Assembly (NCBI GenBank): GCA_020055645.1
Contig: CM034547.1
Location: 24,018,513-24,082,512, forward strand
Reading direction: 5' to 3'
DNA length: 64,000 nt
DNA from: Tomocerus qinae
Taxonomy: Eukaryota > Arthropoda > Collembola > Entomobryomorpha > Tomoceridae
The notes beneath the pieces were generated by a model. It was not told where the DNA came from, made no database searches, and was given only the letters and a program-made list of their open reading frames with translations. The position numbers and the translations under genes are program-made. Positions 5,601 to 54,500 of the stretch are shown here, piece by piece; position 1 is the stretch's first letter, and each line of letters begins with the position of its first letter.

Positions 5601-8600
5601 TGTGCCCTCTACAGCCAGCTTTCTCTGGCCACTTTTCTACCAGGACTTATTGTTCGCAGAAAGAGGATGTGGAATTAAAATTTAAACATCTGGACTCCTT
5701 CCTTTCTCCCTAATTCATTTTCGTTTCACCTCACCTTAGAAATATTTAATGGTCTTCCTCACTCTGCATGCAGATAATAGAAACTACAATACATCAGAGC
5801 TTAACCTTTTTGAATTACAATGCACACAATACAAAGACAGTCAAGTGAAATAATCCCAAATGTAAGCCAAACGGAAATGTAAGTAGGTAGGCATTCAAAT
5901 AAAAGGTCGTTGCCTTTTCCTATACAAGTATGTTATCTTATAAATAAATACATATACAGTCTAGGATAAACATAAACCGTAAGTTACCCTAAGATCCATT
6001 ATGTAGTTCGTAATTGTTAACTCAACCCTCGACCCTAAGAAAATAATGCAAATTTTAGGCATGTACAAAGAAGAAGAGTGGTTATATTATTCTCTGTTTC
6101 ACTTTTACCTTCCCTTTGACAGTATTGAGCTTGTGAAGTGAAGTGGATAACGCTTTAAGTGCAAATACGTATTTTACTTAAGCAAATGGATTATCAAAGA
6201 AAGGAAAGTAGAAAGGATAAGGTGAAAATGAGAATGGATCCATGCTGAAAGAAGAAACTCATTAGTGTCACGTTGAGACTGTTAAATGAACAGAGTAACC
6301 TTCTAAGTTTTTGAGTCAAGTCCATCCGTTTCATCACATCGGTGAAGATAAGATCCCTCATCAAGTCATCAAGGGGCTGAAACTTCTACTTCCCTCCTTT
6401 CATTTATACAAATCCCCACCTCTTCAACTAGTTTAACTTACATAATGCATATGAAAAGATTTTTAGTAGTTCGTCAAAACTTATGCAGAGAATTTATTGA
6501 GCAAATATGGAAAACTTAGCATTATGAAAAAGCATCATTCGAAAGTCTAAAAATCTTGATAAAATTAAACTACTGAATTTATCAATTAATTAGCCTCTTA
6601 GCCAATCAACAAATATAATGAATAATTACATATTACTCAGTATTTCTAGAGCAGGTCAACCTTTTTTGAAAATTATCTTGATGTGTCTTATTTTTTGGGT
6701 TACTCCTTAAGAAGCATTAAGCACATCAAAAACGCATTGAATTGGATTTTTGAGGTTATGTGAAGTTAAATATTTCTGTAAAAATGAAATCCGTAGTGAA
6801 ACTTAAAGTTATAGCAAGGAGAAGGAATGGCTATAATGTAAATCTCGTTACATCCGTAGTGTATTTAGTAGAGCGAAAAAATTACAATAACCATCTATTT
6901 TGGTATGTATAGGTGGGTATTCATAATAATGAGAGAAATAAAAGTGAAGTGCACTTGTCAAAGGTGTCAAGTCAGATTCATAAGAAGTATGAATATGTAA
7001 GAATTTAAGGAGTATCTACATTTAGGTGGAATGCTAAAAGGAAATTCTAGTTAGCCATTAGCTGGTGAGTAGTGAGTACATATATTCACTGAGTATGTTC
7101 CATTTCTAGAAAGAAACGGATACATTGAGAACCAACGCTTAGCTGCAGCATGCATGCCAGATTTGACTTCTTTAGGGCTGTGTGTTCAGAGGACAGGAAA
7201 TGAATGTTATGAAGAGCATCAGTCTCCACTGTACGAGCCACATTATGTAGAGTAATATAATAAGAAAAGTGATGAAAATTTATATACTCACTTCCAGACT
7301 CCCTTATAAACTTCAATTCCAACGAAACGGTAAACTGAAAACTCACGAGATGCCATTAGGACACATACATACCGCACAGAGTCGAGAAGTGACGTGACCG
7401 TTGTGTACCTACAAAATATTAGTGCCCGCCTATAGTCCTTCTCAATGATCTTACACTTTGCAATTCAGTTGGGAATGGAATGAGCAAAGTAAAAGCTTCA
7501 CTTCTACGTTTCTCCATTCCTTTCACTTCCTTTGACTCCATTTTCAGTCATCTCTACAGAAGAGTTGAAATTCTTTATAAATACAAACACAACTGTAGTA
7601 AAATGTATTACAGTGTAGCATTGTGTATAGGGTTCGATAATTCACCATTCTGTAGACTAGCAATTTTGAGGACATATATTTGTAAAAAATATTTGTTTGC
7701 CATTTTAATGCTGTTCTTTTATCAAACCTGAACCTTATTTGTCTCTAGTTATTAAGCAGCGTACTAAGTAAAAGTAAAATAAATAATTTAATAAGTAAAA
7801 TAATTTGAACAAAAGAGTAGAAGAAAGTTTCTCCCCATTATGTATAGAGTAAAAGGAATATTAAAAAGCCTTTGTCCAGCATTAGGAAAAGTCTGATTCT
7901 TTATTTGAATTTGCAGCTCAAGGATGCCGAGATGCCTTTTTCTGTAGCCAGGATAATATGTGCATCTCCAATCGGCTTCTATGCGATAGCGTTCATAACT
8001 GCGAAGATAAGTCCGACGAACTCCGGGCTGCCAACTGTACCAGTAAGTTCTTTTCTGTCTGTCTTGTCTTCAGTCTTATTACCTGTCATGTCACTCATCT
8101 TTCCAAGATATATTTATATATGGATATATCCAAGTAGTATTTGCTCAAACATACTTTTCTTCTATTTTACATGGCTATGAATTCATTTTGTGTGGAATGG
8201 GAACCGCTCACTCTCTGTCTTTTTGGGTTCTAACGTCGGGGCAATTTCCATTGTGTCTCTTGGCTTGGATTTCTCTCTTTCTCAAATACCATATTTCCGT
8301 AAACGGTGAAACGATGTTTGAAGAAAGGAGTTGTATGCTCCTGCTTAGTATTCCTTCAATTTTGCACAAGGAAGTAGTACCTGCATTACTCTAACTGAAT
8401 ATTTGCATTTTACAATAGAATGGGCTCTACTTTAATATTCCGGTATGATGCATTCAATCATACCCTTAGCCACTACATACTTACATAATAATGCCTAAAA
8501 ATATTCTATCAAATTCCATCTGAACAAGTAAAGTTTTTCTCTGTTAAATATTTACAAGACATGAATAAGCAAACACATTAAATATTTATGTGCAGTGCAA

Positions 8601-22423: not shown

Positions 22424-25400
22424 ATGGAAGTCATCAATTCGAAGACAAAAGCAGTGAAGATTCACAAAACGTTACTACTGTCCAAGTATGTTATAGGACA
22501 TTAACATTGATACTTAATGATCAGTGTAATTTATGATTAATGTGACTATGTAGTAAAATTAGCAATTAATTATGGAATTGTTCTTTTCGAATCTTTTGAA
22601 TTTTCAGTCCATCCCTTATCCGAAATCGGTGTTCTTTATCATCGCCAATGAATTTTGCGAAAGGTTATTCACATTTTATTAGCATTATCATTCAATCGAA
22701 TGCCATTCCAAATGCTGAAATGATAATGTCAACAAACGTAATCTCAATTGAGAAATTGTATATACATTTTTTTTGCTTTTTATACCATAAGTTTGATGAA
22801 TATTTTTTGTATTGCAATTAGGTTTTCTTTCTATGGAATGAGAGGTGAGTTGCGGAAATTTGGAATTTAACTTTACAACTTACACAAAGTAAGGGCAATA
22901 TGATTTATTATGAAACATCATGTTTGCGTTTTCTTTGCCATGTGGAGAACTTTTTAGTTGATCAACGTTTAGCATTTTATAGTCTAAATACATTATTCCA
23001 ATTGATCAAGACTCACAATTCTAGAAAGCTAAGAATCAATATTGTACCATTGCGACCGAGGAGACGTCATTACATTTTTCAATAATATGTAGGTAGTAGC
23101 TTGCCACATGAAGTTACTTACCACCATTCTTACATGTATACAAACGCATGGGAGTAAAAGTAGAAACTTCCTGAATTCCATTTCTCCCTAGAAAATCATA
23201 ATTGAATAATGTCGGCTACTACAGCAGTACATCTGATTCTGACAATGTGATTGTAGCAATTTTGACGTTATATCTCATAAACGTTTTGAGATTCTCAGAA
23301 GATACGTCTACAGTGATTTACCATATTTTCGTCATGCTAGCCTATTTCATGCCTCTATTTGGAGGTCTTCTTGCGGATTCTCTACTTGGAAAATTCAGGT
23401 AAACAAAGTATTATGTAACATAACTATAAATATACTAATGCAACTTCAGGTACCTAATGTAACCTGAGTAAATATTGTTTTCGGAGTAGTTCCATAGTCT
23501 CATTGCGTTGTCGATAAAACTGGTAAATAACGTTTAGGGGTAAATTGAATGATGCAATACATACGTGACTGTAATCCTCTTTTATTCTGTTTACCTGTTT
23601 GAAGTAGCTTTGAGCTGTTTGAATTGAACTCAAGTGAAATGTTCTATTAATATAACTTCAATTTGAAAGTGTGTGTAGGCGTAGAATGAGATTACAGTGT
23701 CTGTTCTTTAAGTTTAGATTATTGCGTAGTAAAGTGTAGCTTTATTAGTGTAGGAGGGAGTTCACCGTGTACATGTGATTAGACTGACGAAAACAATTTC
23801 CTGATTGTGATGCTTAATTAATATAATTTGCAATTTCACACAGAACCATTTTCTACTTATCGATTGTGTACGCCTGTGGGAATTTGGTACTGTCAGCTGC
23901 AGCTACTCCTCCTCTCTCTCTTCCACCTATGTAAGTTCCATCCTACATTAGTTACTAGCAACTTTAATTGGAAAAGTTGAAATGTGTAAATCCATTGATA
24001 ACAAGTTAAGTGCACAAGAAATCCATATGATTATAATAGAACATGTCGAGAATATGTAAAACTTTCTATGTAAATCAAAGTGCTTAAAATATCTCTTGCA
24101 TGCTAGCAGATAGTAGTAGACAGGTACTCTCTTTTAGCATTGATTGTAGTGGAGATTCACAAATGTAGTGATGGGTAATATATGTATGTAGTAATTTGCA
24201 TGTTCTTGATACTCTACTATCTTTTGAATGGTTTGTCAGACCATTCAGTATGCTAGGATTGCTTTTGATAGCCATAGGGACTGGGGGAATCAAGTCATCT
24301 GTGGTGGCATTCGGAGGCGATCAATTTCAGATTCCTGGTCAAGAGAGCCAACTGCATACATTCTTTTCAGTCTTTTATTTAGCGATCAATTCTGGGAGTC
24401 TACTCTCTACTTTAATAGTAAGGGACATATCTTTCCTCCCAAGTTTTCCAAAATTCTTTTCAGCATAATATTCTTTAACATAGACTCCCATCTTTCGCCA
24501 AGATGTCGCATGCTTTGGAGAGGAGACTTGTTACTCTCTTGCATTTGGAGTACCTGCAGCTCTAATGCTAGTAGCCCTAAGTAAGTCAAAATATATAATA
24601 AATAATTTACTACTACACCGTGTTTTAATTGTTACTTTAGTATAGTAGCGGCTAGCACAATTTGTATTGTCATCGTCCTGCTTTCTATGTCTAGAAACAT
24701 TTTGTACGAACGGAAATGAAAATCTCTTGAAAATAAAAGACAGTATTCAGTAAAGCCGGCAATAATTTGCATATTTATGACACTTTTCTACTTCCGCAGC
24801 AATTTTCATAGGAGGGAAGTCTTTCTACAAGATAAGAGAACCTGAAGGCAATCTCATTGTGGAAATTGTAAAATGCATCTGGGTAAGTAAATCCAATGAA
24901 AAATTCTATTCATACAATACATACTATACATAGTACCTACTACTTATGATTAATGGTGCATAATTTAATGGAATTTTTCCGTACATTCCCCTTTTACGCA
25001 TACAATTATTATCTACATTATGATGTGTGTATACAGCATGCAATATCAAATCGTAAAAGAAATGGGAAGAGTACACCCCAAAACCACTGGCTTGACTATG
25101 CAGACGATGAATACGATGCAGACTTCATTGCAGATATTAAAACTCTCTTCAGGATCTGCATTCTCTACAGTCCTATAATTGTATTTTACTGTCTTCTCGA
25201 ACAACAGGCAATTTTCTTTGAGATTTCTGTATTTTATAATTTACAAGAAATCACCAGGTACTTTTGTTTGCCACTAAAAGATGCATTTTCTTCAAAAAAG
25301 ATCTCGGCATGTGTTTTTGTAGTTGTGGGTGTTTAAATGGCCATGTCCTCTTATGAAAATGTTAAGAGACAACTTTTTCGTTTTAGGGCTCACGGTGGAC

Positions 25401-28400
25401 TTTACAGGCTAATCGAATGGACGGTCGTGTCTTGGGCTGGACCATAAAACCCGATCAGATGCAGGTGCTTCAGATCCCATAGAATCTTTGTAAATTTAGT
25501 TATACATTAGCCACGGCATACAAGGAACTTGTTTTTGTCTGGCCATGCCAAACAAATCCTAATGGGGAAGAGACACAATAGTGATATAACGTGTCGTGTA
25601 GACATAGCACATCCTTAGCACTAGTTAGAAGGGGAAACTACCTACATACATGACCTCATATAGCAGGAGATAACACCACAAACAAGCATAATACAGACAA
25701 TAAATAGGAAAAGTAGGCGTAAAGAAAAGCTTATGGAGAATAGAAGTCATGACATTAGGGGAAGCCTATTAGATATAAGTCCAAGTCAAAGACAGCAAGA
25801 CTTTCCCTTGTAATCGCACCATGTATGTATTTAGTAGGGACACCAAGAGCAACTTTTTCACAAAGAAAGTCTTTTCACGAGCTACATCGTGGTTTTCCAT
25901 TGTTCAAATGAATCCATTTACCATTTTCAATGGGTTACTAAACTCCCAAATGTTTTTCTTGTTATTCCAGTTCCACGTCTTAAGTCTCACTTATTGTTAG
26001 CACACGTTTTACGTTACCATTTGATCCACTTACTAAAAATCTATCGTATGTATGTGGAGTATGCTTCTGTTTTCATTTCCTTACCTCATTGTACAAGGAC
26101 GTAAGCTAATCCGATTTATCAACAAATTATAGGTTGCTAACTCAATTCTCGTTTTGTTGTTCATACCTCTTTTCGATAAAATCCTCTATCCATTATTTGC
26201 CCGCTGCAATTTTCTCAAGGACCAACTTCAAAGGATTATTGCTGGAGGTTTTCTAGTCGCGTTCTCATTTGTTCTTTGTGCGGTGGTTGAACTACAGCTT
26301 GAGGTTAGCTTTCTTAAAAATCATTACTCATAATTGCTTCCAGCTATTTATTCTGACATCATAATTCCTCCTCTTGCTACCCTTAACTAAATACCTCCAT
26401 TTCAATCTTCTACTACTAACACAATGAGGATATATAAACCTCCGGTACAAATTGGTAATAATAACTTTCAATCTTACGTTTTCAGAATAAGAAAGATCCT
26501 AAATGATATCAAAATCATTGAGGAAAGGTAAAGCAATAGTAAGAAAATTGCTTTTTGTAGTTGATTGAATAGCTATTTCCCAATTGGTTTCTTATTATAG
26601 TATTCATACCTTAAAAATTCAGTAAATGAAGGAGAAAGCAATATAAACTACGAATTTGGGTAACAAGACATAATCAAGTATCATTTTCTAATACCGTGAA
26701 GTATTTTCATCTCGAAACTGCATTGGTATTTATCAAGTATTTTTGCGTTTCAGAACTATAAAAAGATCAATTGCAGAGAAACAAAAAGTCAATATTTATT
26801 TGAGGGTAACAAAGGTAGCATTGTGTGCTTACGAAAAAATGATCACTGCACATAAAGGAAATTGAGTCAAGAAGATTGATGTGAACAAATGTTATTTTAT
26901 GAGTAGCCGACGTATCCAAACCTGCCGGGAATCTCGGAAAACAGTCTCAACTTTGTCAACACACTTCCTTGCACTGTAAACATTACATTACGAACCACTA
27001 CCAATTCCACAATTGGCCATGGCATAATTCCTCCAAATGAAAATTTACTTTATCAAGCCATTTCAACTAACAATTATTCTGTCGTCGTTTTTCCGGAAAG
27101 GGGCGAATGTCAGATAAATGGCAAAGATGTAGAATTTCCATACTTTGAACTGGCTCCTCAATCTTCTCAGGTTTACGACTTGGATCTACTATTTCTAATT
27201 TGCTGTTCCATCTACAATAATTACTAATAAAAAGAGCAATCTCTCTACAGGGTATCGCGGTCAATATAGTACACCTTTACAGGAAATGATGAACAGTAAT
27301 GTGCATAAATCTATCTATATGAGATAATTATTAGAGATTTCGTGCACCAATGATACTAAAATGAAAAGCAATTACCTTTATTAATAGAAATTGCACTCAC
27401 TTATAGTAATAGTAATAACAGTATTTAGCGTTCAGAGACATGATTGCCAGTATCTTCACTAAATAATGGAATTAAGGTTCCCGTTTGAGTTCCCCTAATG
27501 AAGAATTGCAATAATGCCAATAAATGCTCTTAATTAAGTTTGCTGGCATATTGATTTAGTAGATGAAGAGATTGAAAGTTATGAAAATATTGAAGGTTTA
27601 TGTAATAATCTACTTTCATTGTGTGAAGCAGGCTTATAGCATTTTGCTTGGAGCAGAAACAACGGAAACGGAAATTGGAACGTCAGCATTTCGCTTGCAG
27701 CTCATTTATTCTGAAGTGAGTGACGAACTGACTAAATCTCTCGTAGGAAATGCTAAGCTCAGGTAAGTAAATGAGATTCACATCTAATTACATATTTGAT
27801 TATTACATGCCATTCCATTTCAACACGATTATTGAGACGTAATTTTTGTACTGTTAATATTAACGATCAGGCAAACTACAGACAACCATCAATTCTTAAA
27901 TGTTATGTACATTAATGCATTTTTTCTTTCTGTAGAATTGTCACATCGCTATTGAACGAAAATGTGACCTTCCGTTTGGAGTCAGCCAAAGAGCTTTTTG
28001 ACACTCGGGTTATTGAAATCAATAACGTTTCGTCTTCAACAAAAGAATTTACTCCTGAAATGTAAGCCATATTGAAATGAATTAGGTACATAGCAGTGAA
28101 ACAAAATCAAACATGGAATTGTAATAATAATCTGTTCACGAATGTGGCCTTTCCTTGTAACAGTTACTCCGTATGGATGTTCTTGAATAATAATGCGTCT
28201 GTTGAGCTGGGTACAATTTCATTGGAAGCTGGCGGAAGCTATTTGCTGTCTGTGTCGCCTAATTACACGTTGATTTCCAACACTTCGGAACTAACGGAGC
28301 CTTTGACGCTAAATGAGTTGGCCGACAATGCAAAAGACAGCATCGTAAGTTAGCGTTGCAAATTGGATCTAAAAGCTAATTAATAGCTTGCTCTCTACAA

Positions 28401-29204
28401 GCAAATTAGTTTAGGTAGTAGCACATGAGCTATGATCTTATAAAATCGACATTGTAATGTATTGATATTCATAGCTGATGTTACTATTACTTTTTAATAT
28501 CCTAAACTATCACCACATTTAACTCTATTACTGATTGATGTGCATTTACAATGTGTAATACAGTTTAGCATATTACTTAGCTGTGGCTTATTTACCATGT
28601 GTTGCAATTAGGTCATAGCCTAGCTTTGTAATTTTCAAGTAATATTTTGTTTTCTGTATCCTATTTCTGTATTATTTTCTAATTTAGGTTACAAACCTGT
28701 ATACGCTAACAAAGCCAAATTCCGTACATATGCTATGGTTGTTCCCTCAGTACATTGTAGTTACTGTAGGTGAAGTATTATTCGCTGTAACCGGGTATAA
28801 CTTTTCGTACACTAAGGTAAGTACAGATATTGTTTTCAAGGTACCCAATAGTTGGACATGGTTTGTAAAATAAGTATCATGAAATTGTTTGTAAAAAAGG
28901 CTCCAAAAAGTATGAAATCTATTGTGCAATCTTTATTGATGCTCACCAATGGTCTCGGGAGCTTGTGGGTCATCATCGTTACTTCCCTGCAGATCTTTCA
29001 ACACCAGGTTGGTTTCTACTTATTTAAACGTTTATTATTATAAATGTGTCTTCCTCTGGTTGAAAACATTTTATATTTAATTTGCAGTCATCTGAATTTT
29101 TCTTCTACTCTGGTCTGGCATTTATTGCAACTTTCATCTTCATTTGGCTATCAAAACGATTCAAAGAGAAAGAAGAAAAAGACGAAGATGAATTCTTGCA
29201 GTGA
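22424..29204 (+). CDS. POT-A: proton-coupled oligopeptide transporter, PEPT type (SLC15A family)
   Basis: POT/MFS symporter that would import di- and tripeptides with protons across the plasma membrane. The coding exons are 22424-22485, 22608-22663, 22822-22844, 23257-23398, 23844-23930, 24240-24417, 24484-24580, 24800-24882, 25037-25207, 25387-25464, 26133-26303, 26907-27170, 27632-27762, 27936-28061, 28164-28344, 28688-28816, 28900-29007 and 29088-29204. All phases agree, giving 734 residues plus an unfound first exon. Motifs are E-F-C-E-R in helix 1, A-D-S-L-L-G-K-F-R in the 2-3 loop, G-T-G-G-I-K in helix 4, F-Y-L-A-I-N in helix 5, G-S-R-W in helix 7, and a loop at about residues 384-617 with many N-x-S/T sites. 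The helix-10 segment reads V-T-G-Y-N-F-S-Y where active PEPTs have G-L-E-F-S-Y, so the key Glu is Asn. The exon at 22424 enters in phase 1, so an ATG exon lies upstream. Confidence 0.92.
25208..25386 (+). other. GC-AG intron in POT-A helix 7
   Basis: The reading frame requires splicing directly after the Gln-Gln codons ending at 25207, where the intron starts with GC (cag|gcaatt). It ends with ttttag before the G-S-R-W codons. No GT donor gives the conserved Q-Q-G-S-R-W junction. A GT at 25259 would add about 17 residues inside a helix. GC-AG introns are a known minor class. This intron sits at the same position as the last of three introns in POT-C. Confidence 0.7.
26907..28344 (+). CDS. Extracellular loop exons of POT-A
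   Basis: Four exons (264, 131, 126 and 181 nt) encode the roughly 234-residue domain between helices 9 and 10, the PEPT1/2-type extracellular domain that fungal and bacterial POTs lack. It begins with L-N-F-V-N-T-L-P-C, which is shared with POT-B (L-N-F-V-N-T-L-P-C) and POT-C (L-N-F-I-N-T-L-P-C). Several N-glycosylation sequons are visible (NIT, NST, NYS, NVT, NVS, NAS, NYT, NTS). Outside the opening and the G-G-S-Y-like motif near its end, it is poorly conserved among the three copies. Confidence 0.88.
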
Positions 29205-39400: not shown

Positions 39401-42400
39401 CGATATATATTCTCAGAATGGCATAATAAGCAGACCTTCTGATAGAAAATCTGCTCAACAGGTACTCAGACTCCTCCACTGTTTTCTATCATATAGTAGC
39501 ACATACTTCAGCATAGAGACATGAATTGCATGCCAGTTTATATGGTTTTCAATGTTTTAATAAGCCTTCGTAGCTTATTGAGTGATAGCCTTCAAGCAAC
39601 ATCTATCTTGTAACTGTTCTTGTTTGCACTAGGCATTTCTTCTCTCTATAAATCTGAATGTATGCATTTGGAATAAGCTTTTGTGCTGTTCACCTGTTTG
39701 AGCTATAGCACTGTAACCATTTGATATGTGTATTGTGTACATGAATATTTTGATGCTGAACTTGTTCTGGCAGTTCATTTTGTTCATGTCTCTGACTGGT
39801 TCGGCAGTCTAGTTGCATGCTAGCTGGCTAGCTGTAGAGAATGTGTCCAACTCTTCCGAATAACATACAGATACTACTTGAGATTAGTAAAGATCAATTT
39901 ATATACGTTTTCTAAATATTGTAGTGACTTTCCGTAAATCCCTAGCATCAATTACATCTTTTATCAGATACTAAGATAAAACAGTGTATCCCAAATTAAT
40001 ACTTCAATCCGAAATCCATTACCCCAAGTGACGAATTCTAATAGTAATCTCTGGTATATACAAATCCCTGTGAATTATATCTTCTAAAACAATTTGACAC
40101 TTTGAACTTAATGGAATGTAATTAACCTACCAAATACGCCTACCGATTTCCTTCTTATTCCATAAAACCACATCCAATACCTAATGGCATTTTACATACA
40201 AATATCATCTTAAGATCAGCGTACCTGTATATACAATACACACACTACTATTTACTATTGTTTATCTCTATGATATTATTTGAAACGTGACTTACATACC
40301 TACCTATACTCTCACACTACGCAGTTAGGTTAGGTTTGTTATACATCCCTGTGCAGTACAGATAATATTATAATCTTTTTACTACTTACATCTTAACCTA
40401 TGGTACACTAGTGTGCGTCGGAATGATCTTTTAATCTCATAAATATACAAAATCTGTTCTACTACTCCATAAGATTCAGTTTCGATTTTACTAACTGTAA
40501 GATTTGACGTGCAAAATGGAACCTAAAGTAAGGCTGAACCACAACCGTTTAATAACGTTTATTAGCTCCGATAACATTAATAATAGCCATTTAATTTTTG
40601 TATCAATATGAAACTATATTTTTATTTACAGAAGATTCCATACCCGAAGTCGGTGTTCTTCATTGTCGTCAATGAATTTTGCGAAAGGTAAAATATAGAC
40701 ACAAACTTTGATTATCAGTATATTTAGTAGCTGGATTTTTAGTTTTGTCAGACGAAAATTTAAAATTGAGATTGCCTATTTTTATTCTAATGTTATTGTG
40801 ATTTACCTTATAGGTTCTCCTACTATGGCATGAAAGGTGAGTGACACAAACGTTTCTTTTGTTTTGAGATTTAGATGTATGCTTCTTAGTCGACGTGTTA
40901 TTTTGTGCTACCTGTGAATTAATGTGTTTAGACAACGCGGAATAATATCTGGATAAGTGAGCTTAGTTCAAATCATTATGAATATATTTTAGTGTCAAAG
41001 TTTCTGTACTGTTACATCACTAGCATAATGACAATAAGGTCCTACAACAACGGCTTATTGCTTTTTATGTGATTTTAATGTATCCACTTTGTTGTGCATT
41101 AACATAATAGAAAATACCGTGCAGGTTTTAATGACAACATAAGAACCAGAAGTTGATGGAATAAATCTAAATCTAGTAGTAAAAATAGAATATTAATCTT
41201 GCAGTAGTATATCATAGGACGGCAAAATCAACATCCTACATGGATGTAAGTTATCCAACGGTTGAATATTTTATTAATACACTACAAGTTTAAAATGAGG
41301 ACATGAAAATGTAAAATGAACTTGTCAGCTTTATGAAGTTAGAAAGATCACTTTAAGCGAAAAGTAGAGTTGCTACAATTTACATGGGACCGAGATTGAT
41401 GACAATTCAATATATTTAATAGTATCTATAGTTTAGATAGATAAATGTGTTGATATTGATAATGTACGCTATTTATAAGAAAGATAACGGTGAGGATTAC
41501 TTTTGAAATAAATATCTTGCATACATAATGAATATCACTTACTTTTACATACGCGCTACTTCCACATAGAGACGTGTTCATTATGTAGCACATTACTTTT
41601 CCTCGTCTTGAGATAGCTCTTCACTCAAAATAACATACTTACGGCCTGTTTATCGTTACTTGGAAATAGTTATCTATGCACATTACTCTGTAAGTGTGCT
41701 TATTGGTGTTAATTGAAGCACTTCGGCTATAACTTCCTGCAAATGTGACCCTTTCCCTTACACTAAGTAATTATTCAACTGTCTCCCATCGCATTTTATG
41801 CATGCACGGTTAAAGATGGGATACGCATTATTAATTACGATATAATAGTTTTATAAAATGAAGCCGTAGCCAGAGTAAGGAAATATAGAAACCAAATTCC
41901 TATGCGTCTTAGTTATTCATGGGATTTTAGAAACAAGTCCCATTGTGCTTCTAGTCGGTAGAGCATTAGCATTGAAGATGAGACAAGTGTCACTCATTGC
42001 CCATAACAATGCATAGTCGTCTCAATCAAAAAGAGTATGTAGCCGTAATGAATTGCATAGTCTAGGAGAACATGTTAGTACTAGTAGTATGTAGATTTTA
42101 GTGGATTGGCTAAGTGTACATGACACTTGGCTCAATCATGCAACAATAAAATATAATGATGATAAACAACCTGCTTTGAGCAGGTCAAGCTTTCTTCATA
42201 ATGTCTCATTCTTTAGTAAGGTAAGGGAAATTCTTTAGTTCATAGTGTGCAGTAGAGATAGTGGAAGGCATGTGATAGCAGGATATACCAGTATGTAATC
42301 GATACTGTATCTTTAAAACAAACAAAATCAGTCATTGTGATCATTAATCTTGTATCTCCACGTAGTGCATATTTTTATTATGAGTAGCATCTCACATTAC

Positions 42401-45400
42401 TGCACGTAGGTTGCACTACCAAAATCACTTTTCAGAAGTCTTGTTCGAATTAGCAATCCAATACCATATACAAACACATAAATTAACACGTAATGTAATG
42501 TTAAGGGAGGTTGTGGGTTGCCTGTAGGTTTATTGGCCTTAACTAGGAGCCAAACAACTGCAATTGTATCAGTGCGGTATGAAAAAGAAGATTGTTTACA
42601 TTTTAATGGCTATTCAATGCTTCTCCTTCTAGTAGATCGTGATAGATTAAATCATCTTAAAAATGCTATGTTGAAGTAAACCATTTTTTCAAACAAAATT
42701 ATACATTGTCTTTTATAATGCCAATGCATAGCGAATTGGTGAGTAGAAAAGAATGCACGAGACAGATCACATTGGGAAAATATTTTATTTGATCTCTGTA
42801 CGTGATCTGTGTTATTACTATATAGGTATTTACTACAATAGAAGAGGATAGTAGTATAATGTGCAAGCTTCATCATCAATTGTGATCAGGTGGTATTAAT
42901 TAGATTGAGGTCATCTCTTATTCAGCATGGGGAAAATTTGACCCATTCACCGCATTTCTATTCTATTGAAAAACAAAAGTATATAACTCCTAATATGAAT
43001 ATATGTTAAATACAGTGTCTTTATATTCAGTGTCTGTATCTTAGCTATGATTGTAAACACTGGCTTAATTTTTATTCTGTATATGTAATCAGTGACAGTG
43101 AACTGAATCTGAATTGCGTCGCAAAATGTCACAAATGTGCATAATTTTGATGTGCAATTAGTACTTAGGTATTATTAGCAATTAAATTGCCATCCTAACG
43201 AGAAATAGACATGCATAAATTATATATGAAGCAATACAATTGTTTGATAACATCTTGTGCACGCATTATGATTTTAATTGGATGACATCTTTCATGTTTT
43301 ATTCAAAGCTGTTATTACTAAGTAAATTATACAGTAGAATAATAGAATGGTAGTAATTCGCATTTACCTAGAAGAGTAGATGCATATAGTTTATTAATAT
43401 ACATAGATTTATTTACAAAGTATATTTCATGCTAAGAACTAATAAACTTGGTTAATGAGTTGGAGGTGATTAATGACTAATGACTTTGTTTGAATTTATT
43501 AAACGCAGCTGTATTGACGCTCTACTTGAGAAATGTATTGCTAAAGAGTGAAGATACGGCTACAGTCATTTACCATGTGTTTAGCATGTTTTGCTATTTT
43601 ACATGCATTTTCGGGGCAATGATTGCAGATTCGTTTTTAGGAAAATTCAGGTAAATGACTAATTGCTTGTGCTATAATGTAAAGAGTGATTCATAAATGC
43701 CGAAATCGCAAATTTGATGATTTTATGATTGCAGAACAATTTTTTATCTGTCGGTTGTGTATGCTGCCGGCAACGTTCTCCTCTCTTTAGCGGCAACAAA
43801 AGATATCGGACTGCCACAAGAGTAGGTCACTAAAGATTGCATCTGATAAAAATGATATTTCAATTAACTTTTTGCATTTGAAAGTAGTTATGAGACACTT
43901 AGCTAATAATGAATCTTTCAACAGGCCATTTAGCATGACCGGATTAGCTTTGATCGCAATTGGAACTGGAGGCATTAAGCCTTGTGTTGCAGCATTTGGA
44001 GGAGATCAGTTTCAATTGCCACAGCAGGAGAGGCAGCTGACGACATTCTTTTCAGTGTTTTACTTCTCAATTAATGCTGGCTCATTAATCTCTACTTTCA
44101 TGTATGTTAACCAAATATGTTCATTATATCAGCAAATAGGACCGAAATATTTAATGTAAATATTGCATTTATCTTTTACAGAACACCAATCTTCAGAAAA
44201 GATGTTCATTGTTTCGGAGAACAAACATGCTACCCGTTGGCATTTTCCGTTCCGGCATTGCTTATGATCACTGCACTAGGTATATGATTTACAGCGAGAA
44301 TTACCTTAAGATTTGAATTTAAAAATTCTATTCAGTTTGTGAGACACAACTAATCAATTTGATTTGAATTTGAAACTATCTAATTGAGAATGATAGTAGC
44401 AATTATTATCTCGTAAGGAAAACGTCTGCACGAGTTTTAAATGAATATTTCTGCATGAAATTTTCAGTTATCTTCTTGTGTGGAAAACCATTTTACCGTA
44501 TAACTCCACCGGAAGGCAATATTGTAGTGAGGGTCACCAATTGTATAACTGTGAGTTTAAAGTACCTTCAAATAATGTTAGGCAAAATCATGCATGGCTA
44601 AAGCTCACTTTTAACAAAAACTAAATATTATGCACAGCAATTCCACGTACTAACTACTCAAAGACATAAATAGTAACTTTCTAACAATATTCTGCAAGTT
44701 CTTATTGCGCTGTAATCTTGCGTAGCATTTAATCTAATTTATTGAACTTAATGATTTTATTATTTTGCATGTGCATGTCCTTTCTCTGAATCCACCTTCG
44801 GATTTTTCCACTGAGTAATTTATTGCCTTACTGGCCTTTGCAACATTTTAGTGAGATTACAGTCTCGTTGTCTCCTAGAGTGTCAGATTGCCTAATATTC
44901 ACCTACTAAATCAAACAAATCAAATTACAATAATTATTTGTGGGAGGTACAGCAATGTTATACGCTTTAATTTAACTCTCTACACAACAAGTGTAACGCA
45001 ATTAGGTACCGAACGTGACGTTCGTCAACCTATGCCAACATTTATATTCTTAGCAAGAACTTCTTACTCAGAGATCTGTTTGTTTGTGTTTTGGCTTGTC
45101 AGGGCAAGTTTAACAAGGTACTTATTATTGTAAAGTGAATTGCAGATGTAGAATACGTAATGATTAGTCGATAGCCTTTGCTGTACGAAAGTACAAACTG
45201 CGTTTCTTGGAAATACATATAATTTAGTGCCAACAGTTACAATTAGACAGTAATGTAGTAGTAACTCACAAACACTTGCCTTTTTAGCGCAGTGGAAAAG
45301 AAATTGAAATTTGGACTAACTGTAACTGGTCTGGCAACTTATTGCCACCTACTGTTGCAGTGTCCTATCCCATTCTTTTGTTTTCCATTCCAAGTGATTG

Positions 45401-48400
45401 TGAATGGGTAGGGATGTTGGATTTTTAAGGACTAATCTGTATTTACCGTTAGAGATGCAGACTGCACCCATGATAAACCTACACATGCTGCTCTAGTGCA
45501 CCAGAAAAGTATACAGTGTCCATGTATGTATTTATGATGACATGTTCTGACAGATTTGTATCTATTTTAAAATTCATCTCAAGATAATACTATAATAACT
45601 ATGCAAGTAGATTTCAACCATTAGTAGTCATTTTATGCCTACAAAATATGTTTGTGTGGCACAATTTCAATGAGAAATTAATTGGATCATACACAGAATG
45701 TCTTAATATTAAGTCTGGCTTCATTGTTGATTGTACATAAGTATCAAATAGCACATTAACATTCGGTTTGGTGGCAACTTTGTTGATAGCTTTATTTCAA
45801 CTCATTTCTTACAGTCGTCTTCGTTGTGGGAAAGCCTTTGTATACCATTATTGAGCCTAGTGGGAATCTTGTACTTAAAGTCGTAAAGTGCATGACGGTA
45901 AGAGTTCGGCACTAACTTTCCGATTTGCTTTACTAACTACTAATCATTAAAATTTAAGCACGCTTACTGCATTGGTACATAAGCTTAGTGAACTATCACT
46001 CTTCTTTAAAGTTGACATATTTTTAGCTATCAAACTAGTACAGTACTGATTAAACCGAGTCGGTTGCTTGAAAAACGTATTTCTTCTTTGTCTTTAAAGT
46101 AAAAATTACAAATTGACAGATATTGACAGGTGTTGGCAGATTTTAAAATTTACATACAAATGTACTCTCCTATCTGCTTTGCAAATACTATATAATAGCT
46201 TCAATACAAAAAAGGTAAGGAGTTAAGGTTTTTCCACGCACTTTCATTATTTCAAAGTGGCAGGCGGCGAGTTCTATTGCGTATATTTTAACCTGAGATT
46301 ATTATGCTAATTATTATGCAGATCATTCTGATTAGGTTCACTTTAGAGTCATCCTATTCTCTGCAATGAACATGATGCGCATGTAAATGAAAAGCATTTA
46401 ATATGACTCATGACAGCTGGAAAGTTCTATTGTGATACTTGTTGTTGTCTAAAAATCAATTGGCATCAATTGAAATGTCTTATTTATTTCTAAATTTCCT
46501 CCTTTCTAATCACCTACTCTCCTCTTCACAAAATGTTATCCCATTACTTCATTACTCATTTACTAATAGCTACAATAACAATGATTATTTGAATGCATTT
46601 CAAATAAATCTTTGCTTTTGGTTTAATTGGACTGCTTGCAAGAAGTCGGCACATTAGAAATGGAGTGAGCACTGCGAAGTTGAGAAATAATGGCTTTCTC
46701 AATGATCTTAAGAATTTGCTAATATGTCACTAATATTATATCGATACGTTTTATGCTTTTTTTGCTGTGGAGTAGCCTTTGGGGAATGTTAAGTTAACTG
46801 CAACAAGAAATGATATTTAAAAGGGTAAAATTCTAATTAAATCTCGTTTTCCAAAAAATAGCACGCAATAAAGCATAGAGGATCTGGTGACGAAGAAAAA
46901 GAACATTGGCTAGATTACGCTGAAGATAGCTATCCAAGACAACTAATTGACGATATTAAAGTTGCTCTGAGAGTTTTGTTCCTCTACTTGCCGCTGCCAA
47001 TTTTTTGGTGAGAAAATTGATTTGACCATTATAGTAAACATCCTTCTTGGCTAAACACTAATTATTATGTACCCCCTAAATGCATACTACATCTGCTGAA
47101 ATTTTAAAATGAATAGGAGACTAATATAAGTACTGATTAATGTTTTCTGATAATTGTAACGAATTGCGAGCTATAGAGAAGTACTAGTAATTGTGCTGTA
47201 ATTTATAAAATGAGTTGATAAAATCGCTAAATTACTTTATTCTTTTTATGTGGGTGCTGCCTCAATGTTTTTGGACTAAAGGGCATTGGTAAGAACATTC
47301 ATGCTTACAACATAATTTAGTTTCTCTTTATCTAATTCAGAATGTCCAAATTAAACATTTATATCCGTAAATCTTAGTTTGACCAACAAGGATCAAGATG
47401 GACATTCCAAGCAACTCGAATGGATGGCGAGGTATTTGGTGTGACCATAAAGCCGGATCAAATGCAGGTGAATCAATAAAACCCAAACAATGAAATGCCT
47501 TACTTAAAACAATGTGATGCTCTTATACATTTATAACATGTTTTCTCATTTATACAATTACCAGGTTGTAAATCCCTTCTTAATTTTGGCCCTGATTCCA
47601 ATCTTCGATCAAGTGGTTTATCCATTGCTTGGCAAACTCAATCTTCTTAAGAAACCTTTGCAGCGTTTGACAATGGGAGGTTTATTGGCTGCCGTGGCAT
47701 TTATCGTTTCAGGAATTCTCGAACTCAAACTTGAGGTATAAGTTAAAGGACAATTATAATCTAGCAGTTGATAGCATCGCAAATTATGCTCTCAAATATC
47801 AATTTTCTTAACATTACGATTTGTTTAAATGTTTTTCAAATACACTTTTTTAATATACTGCTTTTAAGGACGATACATTGTACTGTTAGATATAATATTA
47901 TTATCTACTCCGTTTTGTAAATGTATGCTTAATTGTACATATCTTTTGATTGCAGCCAACGTACGCTATTAATCTCAAAGCTGGTGAATCGAACTTAAAT
48001 TTCGTCAATACTCTACCTTGCAACATCACAATAACTTTACCTGATGTTAAGGAAAATGAAATCATTAAACCATATGAGAACTTAATTTTCTCCCAAATTG
48101 AAGCCAAAACTTACAATGTTAAAATTGTACCTGATACCACAAATGCATATTGTTCAAAAATTAAAGAATTCTCGTATAAAATGGAAGCTGAATCTAAACA
48201 AGTGAGTAGTGCATTAGATCCTGCTTTGTATTTGACATCTAAAGATATTTATACAGTTAATTTATACAAGTAATAATAAATTTTATTTTCAGGCTTTTAC
48301 ATATTTGGTTGGTCTTGAGAATGAAGCAGGAAATAGCAAAACAATCAAAATATTTAAGCCAAAGGTGGCCGATGATCTCGAAAAATCAAGGAAAGAAGGA

Positions 48401-49469
48401 TCGCCCAAAATACGGTATATCTTTTTAACTTCAGTTAATTAAACCATTTTAAAGGATATAGTAACATTGTAAACCATATATACTAATATATACACTATAT
48501 ACCAATCAATTTGTTTTTAGTTTAATCCATTCAGGACTTGTCGGGACACCTCAGTGGGGCGAAGACAGTAATACAACTGTCCTCTTAAAGTCTGTAAACT
48601 TAAAAGAAGAGAAAAACTATACTATCTTTGTAAATTCGAATGACACAGAACCACTTGATATCGAAGTTGCAAGGTTATAATTTTACCAACTTATAATATA
48701 TATAAAATAATATGTATAGAAAGATGTAGGATCATTTGGTTATTGTTTGTAACTTGTTAACATTGATCTTTCAGCTATGACATAAAATTGATTTCTGAAG
48801 TGACTGGTCAAGAGGTAGATCTGGGACAATTTAAGTTCCGCCTTGGAGGGGTTTACGTATTGACAGTAACGAAGAATTTCACAGTCAACGGGAATGATAG
48901 TTTTGTAGCATCTTCCCAAATTATCACCGAACCAAATTCAATTCACATGCTTTGGTTGTTACCTCAATACATTATCATCACCATAGCCGAAGTTATGTTC
49001 TCCATTACAGGACTTGAGTTTTCTTACAATCAGGTACTAATTGATTCTAATACCATATTGTAAATGAATGGCAATTTTTATGCTTTAGTTCTTAACGATT
49101 GATGATTTACACAGGCTCCCGCCAGCATGAAATCTTTGATTCAGTCTGCTTGGTTGCTAACAGTGGCATTTGGAAATTTAATTGTCGTTATTATTGCTGA
49201 AGCCCATATATTTAAAGAACAGGTAACGTCCATAATATTATTTCAAATTAGTTTAACTTGTGTTATGTAATTTTATTTTATATTATCTGTTTCAATAGTC
49301 AAAAGAATTCTTCCTCTTTGCTGGACTGATGATCGTGGATATGATGATTTTTGCTGTGATGGCATATTTCTACAAGCCAGCTAACACGAACAACAATAAC
49401 AAAAACGAAAATGAAATGACAGAAAAAGCGGATAATGGTCACGGAAATAAAGGATACCATGATGAGTGA
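36422..49469 (+). CDS. POT-B: proton-coupled oligopeptide transporter, PEPT type, with alternative exons
   Basis: Second POT paralogue and probable peptide/proton symporter. The exons are 36422-36483, 40632-40687, 40814-40836, 43509-43650, 43735-43821, 43925-44101, 44182-44279, then either 44468-44550 or 45815-45897, then 46862-47007, 47282-47288, 47378-47467, 47565-47735, 47956-48201, 48293-48414, 48521-48673, 48775-49033, 49115-49222 and 49299-49469. All phases agree, giving about 733 residues plus an upstream ATG exon not found. The exon at 36422 has the same length (62 nt) and phase as that of POT-A and encodes an acidic N-terminus. Motifs are E-F-C-E-R, H in [38 protein letters not shown] and [11 protein letters not shown]. 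Oddities are Lys in Y-Y-G-M-K, where family members have Arg, and Cys for Pro in helix 2 (C-Y-F-T-C). Confidence 0.92.
44468..44550 (+). CDS. POT-B alternative exon 8a (mutually exclusive with 8b)
   Basis: This 83-nt exon enters in phase 1 and leaves in phase 0. It encodes the stretch around the end of helix 6 and the start of the large cytoplasmic loop ([18 protein letters not shown]). Acceptor tttcag, donor gtgagt. It aligns along its full length with exon 8b, with 24800-24882 of POT-A and with 53185-53267 of POT-C, all 83 nt. Using both 8a and 8b would break the frame. Confidence 0.85.
45815..45897 (+). CDS. POT-B alternative exon 8b (mutually exclusive with 8a)
   Basis: This is a second intact version of the same 83-nt segment ([18 protein letters not shown]), with acceptor cttacag and donor gtaaga, 1,264 nt downstream of 8a. 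It has no stop and keeps the conserved V-G-K-P and G-N positions, so it appears functional rather than decayed. Its loop end (K-V-V-K-C-M-T) is more basic than the R-V-T-N-C-I-T of 8a. Confidence 0.85.
47282..47288 (+). CDS. POT-B 7-nt microexon
   Basis: The upstream exon ends in phase 2 after C-C-A-A-T-T-T-T-T-T-G, and the next large exon starts in phase 0 with F-D-Q-Q. The conserved W-A-L between them is supplied by GGCATTG, which has an AG just before and gtaaga just after. It completes Trp and adds Ala-Leu. Without it the frame is lost. POT-C has the equivalent GGCTTTG at 54195-54201. Confidence 0.85.
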
Positions 49470-51560: not shown

Positions 51561-54500
51561 ATGGGTGCTATTACAGACGATACTAAATCATCAGAGATTA
51601 AGGTAAAAGATTTGAAAAACAATAAACTGTGATAACACAATGTAGGCAATAAGAAAGTCAAGAAAGGGTAAATTGGAACAGTCTCTGTGAAGTAGTAGTA
51701 GTTTGAAGTCGAAAATAGTGTATTTTGAAAGGAGTTATTATACGACTTTCTACGATGTATAGAACGAAAGTTCCCCAGACAGAGGAATTTAGATACTTAT
51801 CATCGACTATAACAAAGGTGTCCTCTTTTGAAGCAGCTGTCACACGATAATTTACGGTGTATAAAACAAAATTTACCCACTTCCCCAGACGGGAGGGGGT
51901 TATTTCGTCCATTAATAAAATTGCCTTGTGCTATGATCCGAAGACACTATTCAATGCTTACTTTGGTCAAAGGTTATGGCACAATCTAGTATTATGCTAG
52001 AGAAATAGGTAACAGACAGACAGACGGCTGAAAGTAGTGCCATAAATAAGAAATGAAGTTTTTGTTAATCAATGTAGAATCAGAAAACTTTTTTATCTCC
52101 ATCAGTTTGTGAATGGTAATTCAAACTGAATGCAATCCATAAGCGTAAGTAATAGTAATAAATAAGACAAAATTAATACTTTCAGATGGAGAACTTAGGT
52201 AAAACGGAGAAGCTTCCGTACCCATCTGCTGTGTTCTTTATAGTTCTTACCGAGTTCTGCGAAAGGTAAACGAAAATGTCAAAACTTACTTATTATCTTG
52301 TACTCCAAGGTTTAATAACAGATTTGCGATACACGTGTATATTTCGACAGGTTCACATACTACGGGATGAGAGCAGTTTTGATCCTTTACATGCGGAATA
52401 TGTTAAAATTTTCGGACGATGAAGCAACAACATATTTTCATATCTACATGTTGCTCTGCTACGCTATGCCGGTAGTTGGGGCATTGTTGGCAGATTCCTC
52501 TTTTGGAAAATACCGAACAATTATGTACATATCAATGGTGTATGCTGTAGGCTGTGTAGTTATGTCTGTAGCGGCAATTCCACCTCTTCATCTACCTGCA
52601 GCGTGAGAAACAATTGAGATTGTCATTAGAGTTGAATTAATCAGGCTTAATGTTTAAATTATGCTGATTTTGTAGTATGTACTATTTACTTATAGGGAAC
52701 TGAGCGTGATTGGATTGATGTTAATGGCCATTGGAACAGGTGGCATTAAGCCTTGTGTAGTTGCACTGGGAGGAGAGCAATTCGTTTTGCCGCAACAAGA
52801 AAAGCAACTTCAGCAGTTTTTTTCTATTTTTTTCTTTGCGGTAACCATCGGTAGTATGATATCTACGATAATTACGCCCGTATTTAGGAAAGATGTTGGA
52901 TGTTTTGGCGATGATACCTGTTACGCGCTTGCTTTCGGTTTCCCTGCATCTCTGATGGTTGTCGCCACGGGTAAAATATCTTTTAGGACAGTTTCAATTA
53001 GCTCAGAATTAATTTTTGATATTTGCTGGAACTAAATTGACTTTTCTTGTTATCCTCCCCGGCTCTATTATTGTTTACTGATGGACTGTCGAATGACGTG
53101 TGCTGATGTATAATGAAACCGGGAAACTACTTTGCGACATGCACTTGTTGACAACGACTTTGTGAAACCAATTTTACTCTTCAGTAATATTCATGAGCGG
53201 AAAGAGAAAGTATAAAATCAATAACCCCGAGGGAAATATCATGGTTAAGGTCGTCAACTGTATCTCCGTAAGTCTCCCATCTTTTACTCTTTGCTTTTCC
53301 TTTCCCCATCGCTCTCTATAGCATCCCAGATTTCAAGCACAGCCAGAGGTTTCTCCTTCCGTTCTCTGTGCGTCATCAAACTTACAAGTTTTAAGTCATT
53401 TTAATCTCGCTACGTGGAAATGCTATATTCTCTCCACCTTTTCAATGCACTCAAAAGCTTACATCGTCATTACAACGTGAGATACTACATCATATATGGT
53501 CACAGATCATTTTCCTAGATCTAAATAAATATATCCCTTTGTGCTTCATATTATATAAAATGGGATATATGATCTTATGGTATCATATGCTCTCTATTTA
53601 CTGTATCTCTTCCATCTAATATAATCTTTATATAATCCTAAATGTTTCCGCATATACATAAGAATACACTCGACACATCAAATTAAAAGTGACATTTAAT
53701 ACACAGAATAGACATACTTGCTTTATCATTCAGCCGGACACTTGCAACTATATCTATATAGATATACCTAAGCCTTTTTCTCCGCATACTTTCATATCTC
53801 CGTTCGGTGCTTCCTTTCAATAGAATAGTATATAACGTTTTCTGAGAATTGGCTGAAACGATTTCCTTTTCTTTATTATAGTATGCCATTGTAAAGAGAT
53901 CCAAAAGCAAGGGGCAAAGTGTCACATCTGAGGGAAAGTTGCACTGGCTAGATTACGCAAGCGACAAGTTTGATATGAAATTAATTGAAGATACAAAAGC
54001 ATTGCTACATGTTATGGTCTACTACCTACCTGTGCCGATGTTCTGGTGAATTTATTACACAATTATCTCTTTTGTTATAATAAAATAAGAAATACTGATA
54101 GCATTTTTATATTATATTGACCAAGATATTAATGGATTTTGGTTCCTTTATTTTCTGGGTGATGTTGCTGATGATCTGTTTGGATGACGTAAAGGGCTTT
54201 GGTAAAATGATCTCAATACAATATTATCTAGCTAATAAATCTAGTTAACTTTAATAAACTTAATGTATTCATATTTTAAGCATGACTAGTGAATATAATT
54301 AGTGTTTTGTTTGTTTTTTGCTGCTTGTTAACATAATTGGGGGAATCTACCCATTTTCCTGTTGAATGTAAACTCTTCATGGATACAGTACGATCAAATA
54401 GTAAGAAATGTTTAATTTTACACAGCTCTGCCTTGTACACACATGAACTTCACCTTCAACTCTATAGAGCTTAACATTATCGATCATTTTTATGTTAGCT

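Follow-up and report, generated by a model that had tools for sequence, protein, structure and literature searches.

The window analysed, a 64-kb stretch of the Tomocerus qinae genome, contains three SLC15-type genes arranged in tandem on the + strand, here named POT-A, POT-B and POT-C. POT-B encodes an SLC15/PEPT-type transporter and extends from 40516 to 49469; its model comprises 19 exons, including the alternatives 8a and 8b, and all its introns have GT-AG boundaries. The product matches PF00854 with 366 bits and, combining a PTR2 domain with a PEPT1/2-like sequence, belongs to the SLC15/PEPT group of the POT family; its top protein match is from Folsomia candida (57% identity), and the closest solved structures are those of SLC15A2 and SLC15A1. 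POT-B is a putative PEPT-type proton/peptide symporter, for which proton-coupled uptake of di- and tripeptides is predicted. The model also includes an exon of 7 nt (47282-47288), which completes a conserved W-A-L ahead of the FDQQGSRW stretch; a microexon of the same size is placed at the same point in POT-C (54195-54201) by an automatic model whose adjoining exon calls are less sure.

In a quick tree computed without the exon columns discussed below, POT-B and POT-A fall among six springtail rows in a group of 8 rows (support 94, not starred), while POT-C lies outside the springtail group on a long branch. POT-A (22605-29192) has GGIKSSV in place of GGIKPCV, the Pro and the Cys being invariant in the 65-row alignment A1, and the model of its FDQQGSRW region is poor; its transport function may be changed or lost. 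The 5' portion of the window holds a separate gene with an LDL-receptor class A domain at 7886-8134 (PF00057, 30.1 bits).

In POT-B, the constitutive exon 7 (44182-44279) is followed by an intron of 188 nt (44280-44467), exon 8a (44468-44550), an intron of 1264 nt (44551-45814), exon 8b (45815-45897), an intron of 964 nt (45898-46861) and a further constitutive exon (46862-47007), all on the + strand. Exons 8a and 8b encode versions a and b of the same segment, namely the end of TM6, the loop after it and the start of a bundle-bridge helix. Both measure 83 nt, are entered in phase 1 and left in phase 0, are bordered by AG and GT sites and have open frames, which bears out the preliminary description of two exons of equal length and phase with intact splice sites and no stops. 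Inclusion of either exon alone gives an ORF of 716 aa. Joining the two shifts the frame, as had also been claimed, so that codon 250 becomes a stop with 10 junctions still to follow; when both are skipped, the stop comes at codon 204, ahead of 9 junctions. An automatic spliced alignment of the 8a isoform reproduced the 18-exon model of POT-B, a result that tests the splice sites but is not independent, the query being taken from the model itself. Leave-one-out donor scores were 4.9 for 8a and 9.0 for 8b, the 18 donors of POT-B ranging from 0.1 to 10.1, and the acceptor scores were 6.5 and 8.2, respectively, within a range of 0.8 to 10.3 for 18 acceptors. Judged from their sequences, 8a and 8b are both intact and interchangeable in frame, and they show the features of tandem-duplicated exclusive exons, i.e. 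equal length, homology, shared phases, splice sites and a non-productive double inclusion.

A profile of 28 columns, derived from 106 distinct external segments, was used to scan both strands of the 64 kb, and only four positive matches were found: 8a (67.3 bits), 8b (59.5 bits) and the single counterparts in POT-C (56.4 bits) and POT-A (54.9 bits); positive matches occurred in none of 20 random Markov windows used as control. These counterparts, placed by profile match, comparison and spliced model at 24800-24882 in POT-A and at 53185-53267 in POT-C, are likewise 83 nt long, on the + strand and in the same phases. The preliminary description had assigned one copy to each of these genes, as is found here, and had regarded the duplication as specific to POT-B; this holds inside the window, but not beyond it, since decapod PEPTs also have alternatives for this segment. 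The presence of three related genes in tandem could suggest that the second exon is an assembly or haplotype artefact, or an intronic fragment of a fourth gene of the array. This is extremely improbable: 8a and 8b share only 14 of 28 residues, and tblastn of the complete protein, at E up to 10, revealed no second exon 7 or next exon in either intron. On the tblastn result, the profile scan and the divergence, both the artefact and the gene fragment were rejected.

The divergence between 8a and 8b is about the same as that of either from the other two genes in exon 8, where 8a shares 14 residues with POT-A and 17 with POT-C, and 8b shares 13 with each. The 36 mismatches between 8a and 8b are distributed 9/7/20 over codon positions 1/2/3 (P 0.0002); since they fall mainly on third positions, both exons appear to be under selection. 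Under a neutral simulation, an open frame with at least 14 identical residues was obtained in a fraction of 0.0002 of the runs. Synonymous sites are near saturation (dS 2.55), which makes the ratio based on them only approximate. The upstream flanks of 150 nt are alike at chance level (479 of 500 shuffles were as good), the downstream flanks are marginal (28 of 500) and the exons themselves are clearly alike (2 of 500). An old duplication of which both copies are still coding argues that both are used. The alternative, that a single exon is in use and the other is a relic left open by chance, could draw on the weaker donor of 8a and on the Folsomia protein P0001, which shows the 8b-like version only; nevertheless, it is unlikely, because both exons exceed the single copies of POT-A and POT-C in profile score, the mismatches are biased to third positions in a way that neutral simulations rarely yield, and two versions are found at the same site in decapods.

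Mechanisms of mutual exclusion have been reviewed (PMC6071210). Steric exclusion by a short intron was ruled out, the 8a-8b intron being 1264 nt long, and so was U2/U12 incompatibility, a simple motif check revealing GT-AG introns without a U12-type 5' site. The only mechanism of exclusion visible in the sequence is the reading-frame rule: the length of each exon leaves a remainder of 2 when divided by three, which fits a scheme of frame disruption and presumed decay. Docking/selector pairings, whose search had been suggested in the preliminary description, did not rise above chance in the introns around the two exons; the best gapless stems between introns were matched by at least 45 of 100 random controls in every comparison, and for whole-intron duplex energies, computed with a program poorly suited to long introns, 29, 3 and 13 of 40 shuffles did as well in the three comparisons. 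The case of 3 in 40 concerns intron 7 with the 8b-9 intron, and the gapless-stem test gave it no support; the whole analysis covered the Tomocerus qinae introns. Fifteen of the 18 introns of POT-B measure 76-274 nt; those flanking 8b, together with intron 3 (2672 nt), are the longer ones, as would be expected for the introns around 8b if they carry control elements.

The two early stops, at codons 250 and 204 and followed by 10 and 9 junctions, would also suit a role of the second exon mainly as a poison-exon switch, in which regulated inclusion or omission of both exons reduces the amount of transporter by way of decay, with isoform diversity as a secondary effect. We regard this as improbable, since a poison exon does not need a selected, transporter-like coding sequence, and since decapod relatives have two full-length versions.

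These relatives emerged from two protein searches, from which the best 120 of 4608 and the best 120 of 6984 matches gave a union of 151 proteins. With the two POT-B isoforms added (153 rows, 11,628 pairs), identity was compared inside and outside the segment of 28 residues corresponding to POT-B residues 199-226. The 25 pairs with the largest drop inside the segment are all crustacean, except the POT-B pair itself; no insect pair is among them, in a database clustered at 90% identity, which hides isoforms. The clearest decapod pairs are P0007/P0015, probably penaeid as judged by their closeness to Penaeus entries, and P0020/P0125 from Homarus americanus. P0007 and P0015 are 97% identical outside the segment and 36% inside; beyond residue 61 they differ only at 260-286, within their segment at 259-286. 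Their contigs of 2545 and 3225 bases, encoding 769 and 756 residues, are too short for an intron-rich gene and can therefore be read as transcripts (the label 'lgn' presumably denotes Logan read assemblies). The two proteins differ over residues 1-61 as well, as though a choice of first exon accompanied that at exon 8; the Homarus pair has its N-terminus in common, so such a linkage is not general. P0020 and P0125 are 99% identical outside the segment and 39% inside, and for both the longest contig on record measures 1,028,799 bases; P0125, however, lacks three blocks and has a different C-terminus, like a poor gene model, which counts against the exclusive-exon reading. The pairs P0011/P0019 and P0026/P0032 show the same drop and, being only 93% and 90% identical outside the segment, probably come from different species. 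When a 28-residue window was moved from residue 12 along five chosen pairs, 199-226 was the lowest position, or tied for it, in four; in the fifth, P0034 with P0122 from Cherax, a missing stretch upstream dominates the scan. The decapod b versions have two extra residues. Databases also carry 'isoform X' models for these PEPT genes. At the level of protein sequence, decapod PEPT proteins carry two versions of exactly the exon-8 segment in otherwise matching proteins. The nearest springtail protein, P0001, shows one version, in a database whose 90% clustering would hide another; its entry is a six-member cluster, the content of the other members being concealed in this way. A protein search with the 8b segment gave 6 candidates and no matches.

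Whether the springtail and decapod pairs go back to one origin or to several was addressed with a tree of the exon, based on 28 columns and leaving out P0122, whose segment is incomplete. Here 8b groups with Folsomia (support 92/87) and nine malacostracan a-type exons are grouped together (94/92), while seven b-type exons are joined weakly (66/38) beside a sheep sequence; should this b-type grouping be real, the decapod switch would predate the split between lobsters and shrimps. The palaemonid non-b exons P0014 and P0032, partners of the b-type P0026, lie outside the a-type group, a point against the exclusive-exon reading. The best tree does not unite 8a and 8b as sisters, and forcing them into one clade costs 11.4 log-likelihood units (AU p 0.31), so that a single clade is not rejected, 28 columns being too few to decide ancestry. 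In score 8a is nearer to crustacean exons and 8b to insect and Folsomia exons, a pattern that is only suggestive as a clue to ancestry. It is conceivable, though rather doubtful, that the switch between TM6 and the bundle bridge is an ancient pancrustacean feature that predates the springtail-decapod split, with one copy lost in POT-A, in POT-C and in many other lineages, and that it serves invertebrate peptide uptake in general as a change of gear. PMC9741552 describes considerable evidence that exclusive-exon events have evolved convergently, and for this reason repeated origin is the safer default.

Predicted models of the two penaeid proteins, with mean pLDDT of 84.0 and 83.9, let the segment start 9 (a) or 8 (b) residues before the end of TM6, run through a loop of 9 (a) or 12 (b) residues and end 10 residues into the next helix; the preliminary description had placed the exons at the junction between helix 6 and a cytoplasmic loop. 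A fold search with the b model gave HsPepT2 and mammalian PepT1 as top matches, and the helix after the loop would lie, judging by its position, in the bundle-bridge linker. The bundle bridge is amphipathic and lies on the inner leaflet, and its role is described as 'currently unclear', perhaps in lipid sensing or as a platform for partners, in the study of the PepT1 and PepT2 structures (PMC8565842). The net charge of the two springtail versions is equal (+2).

Taken together, 8a and 8b are probably tandem-duplicated mutually exclusive exons, of which one would enter each productive mRNA and which would tune the transporter in two versions. The frame logic, the third-position bias with the neutral simulations, splice sites within the range of the gene, the long introns around 8b, the position of the segment and the decapod pairs favour this reading, which the preliminary description had put forward, exclusive use in this animal being presumed; against it count the competing RNA pairing that did not exceed chance and the single version in P0001. 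The choice would be made by regulated competition between splice sites across the long introns around 8b, and mRNAs with both exons or with neither would be removed by nonsense-mediated decay. The switch would then exchange the terminal turns of TM6, the loop that follows and the initial half of the first bundle-bridge helix; a change at this joint, with the rest of the protein unchanged, could alter rocking, regulation or trafficking, the swap possibly tuning the rocking of the two bundles or the contacts of the membrane-facing bridge. This would yield two versions, differing in kinetics or regulation, to suit different tissues or conditions.

As a rule, each peptide transporter gene is taken to encode a single fixed protein. 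The either-or exon of POT-B is probably a real, little-noticed way to obtain two transporters from one gene. Since the same joint varies in a springtail and in decapods, it may be a site where transporter behaviour is tunable; with the switch confined to the end of TM6 and the bundle bridge, the two proteins, identical elsewhere, would represent a natural swap experiment, and studies of peptide transport in shrimp and lobster may have examined one of two versions. The preliminary description knew of no such exon in an animal PEPT; among the open-licence PMC papers listed by literature searches (up to 20 per listing), no title or abstract dealt with exclusive exons in SLC15; the main text of PMC9741552 mentions neither SLC15 nor 'peptide transport', and the word 'transporter' is absent from the main text of PMC3923563.

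This kind of event is well known; what appears to be new is to find it in a peptide transporter, at this particular joint, and in two arthropod groups that are only distantly related. The arthropod clusters of Dscam, Mhc, 14-3-3zeta and MRP1 resemble POT-B in having tandem-duplicated homologous exons used one at a time; they are controlled by docking/selector RNA (PMC6071210), whereas POT-B has two exons, for which competing pairing was not found. In the carrier SLC12A1 (NKCC2), as in POT-B, a transmembrane segment is altered by alternative versions of one exon, in this case exon 4; the versions are said, in a secondary statement, to differ in ion affinity (PMC6873903), and PMC9741552 mentions a third exon that is exclusive. 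It is a different carrier, the segment concerned is TM2, and kinetics are reported for SLC12A1, while POT-B is described from its sequence. Finally, the decapod SLC15 variants (P0007/P0015 and P0020/P0125), although their b versions are longer by those two residues and they are known from proteins rather than from genomic exons, belong to the same family as POT-B and have exactly the same 28-residue segment replaced.
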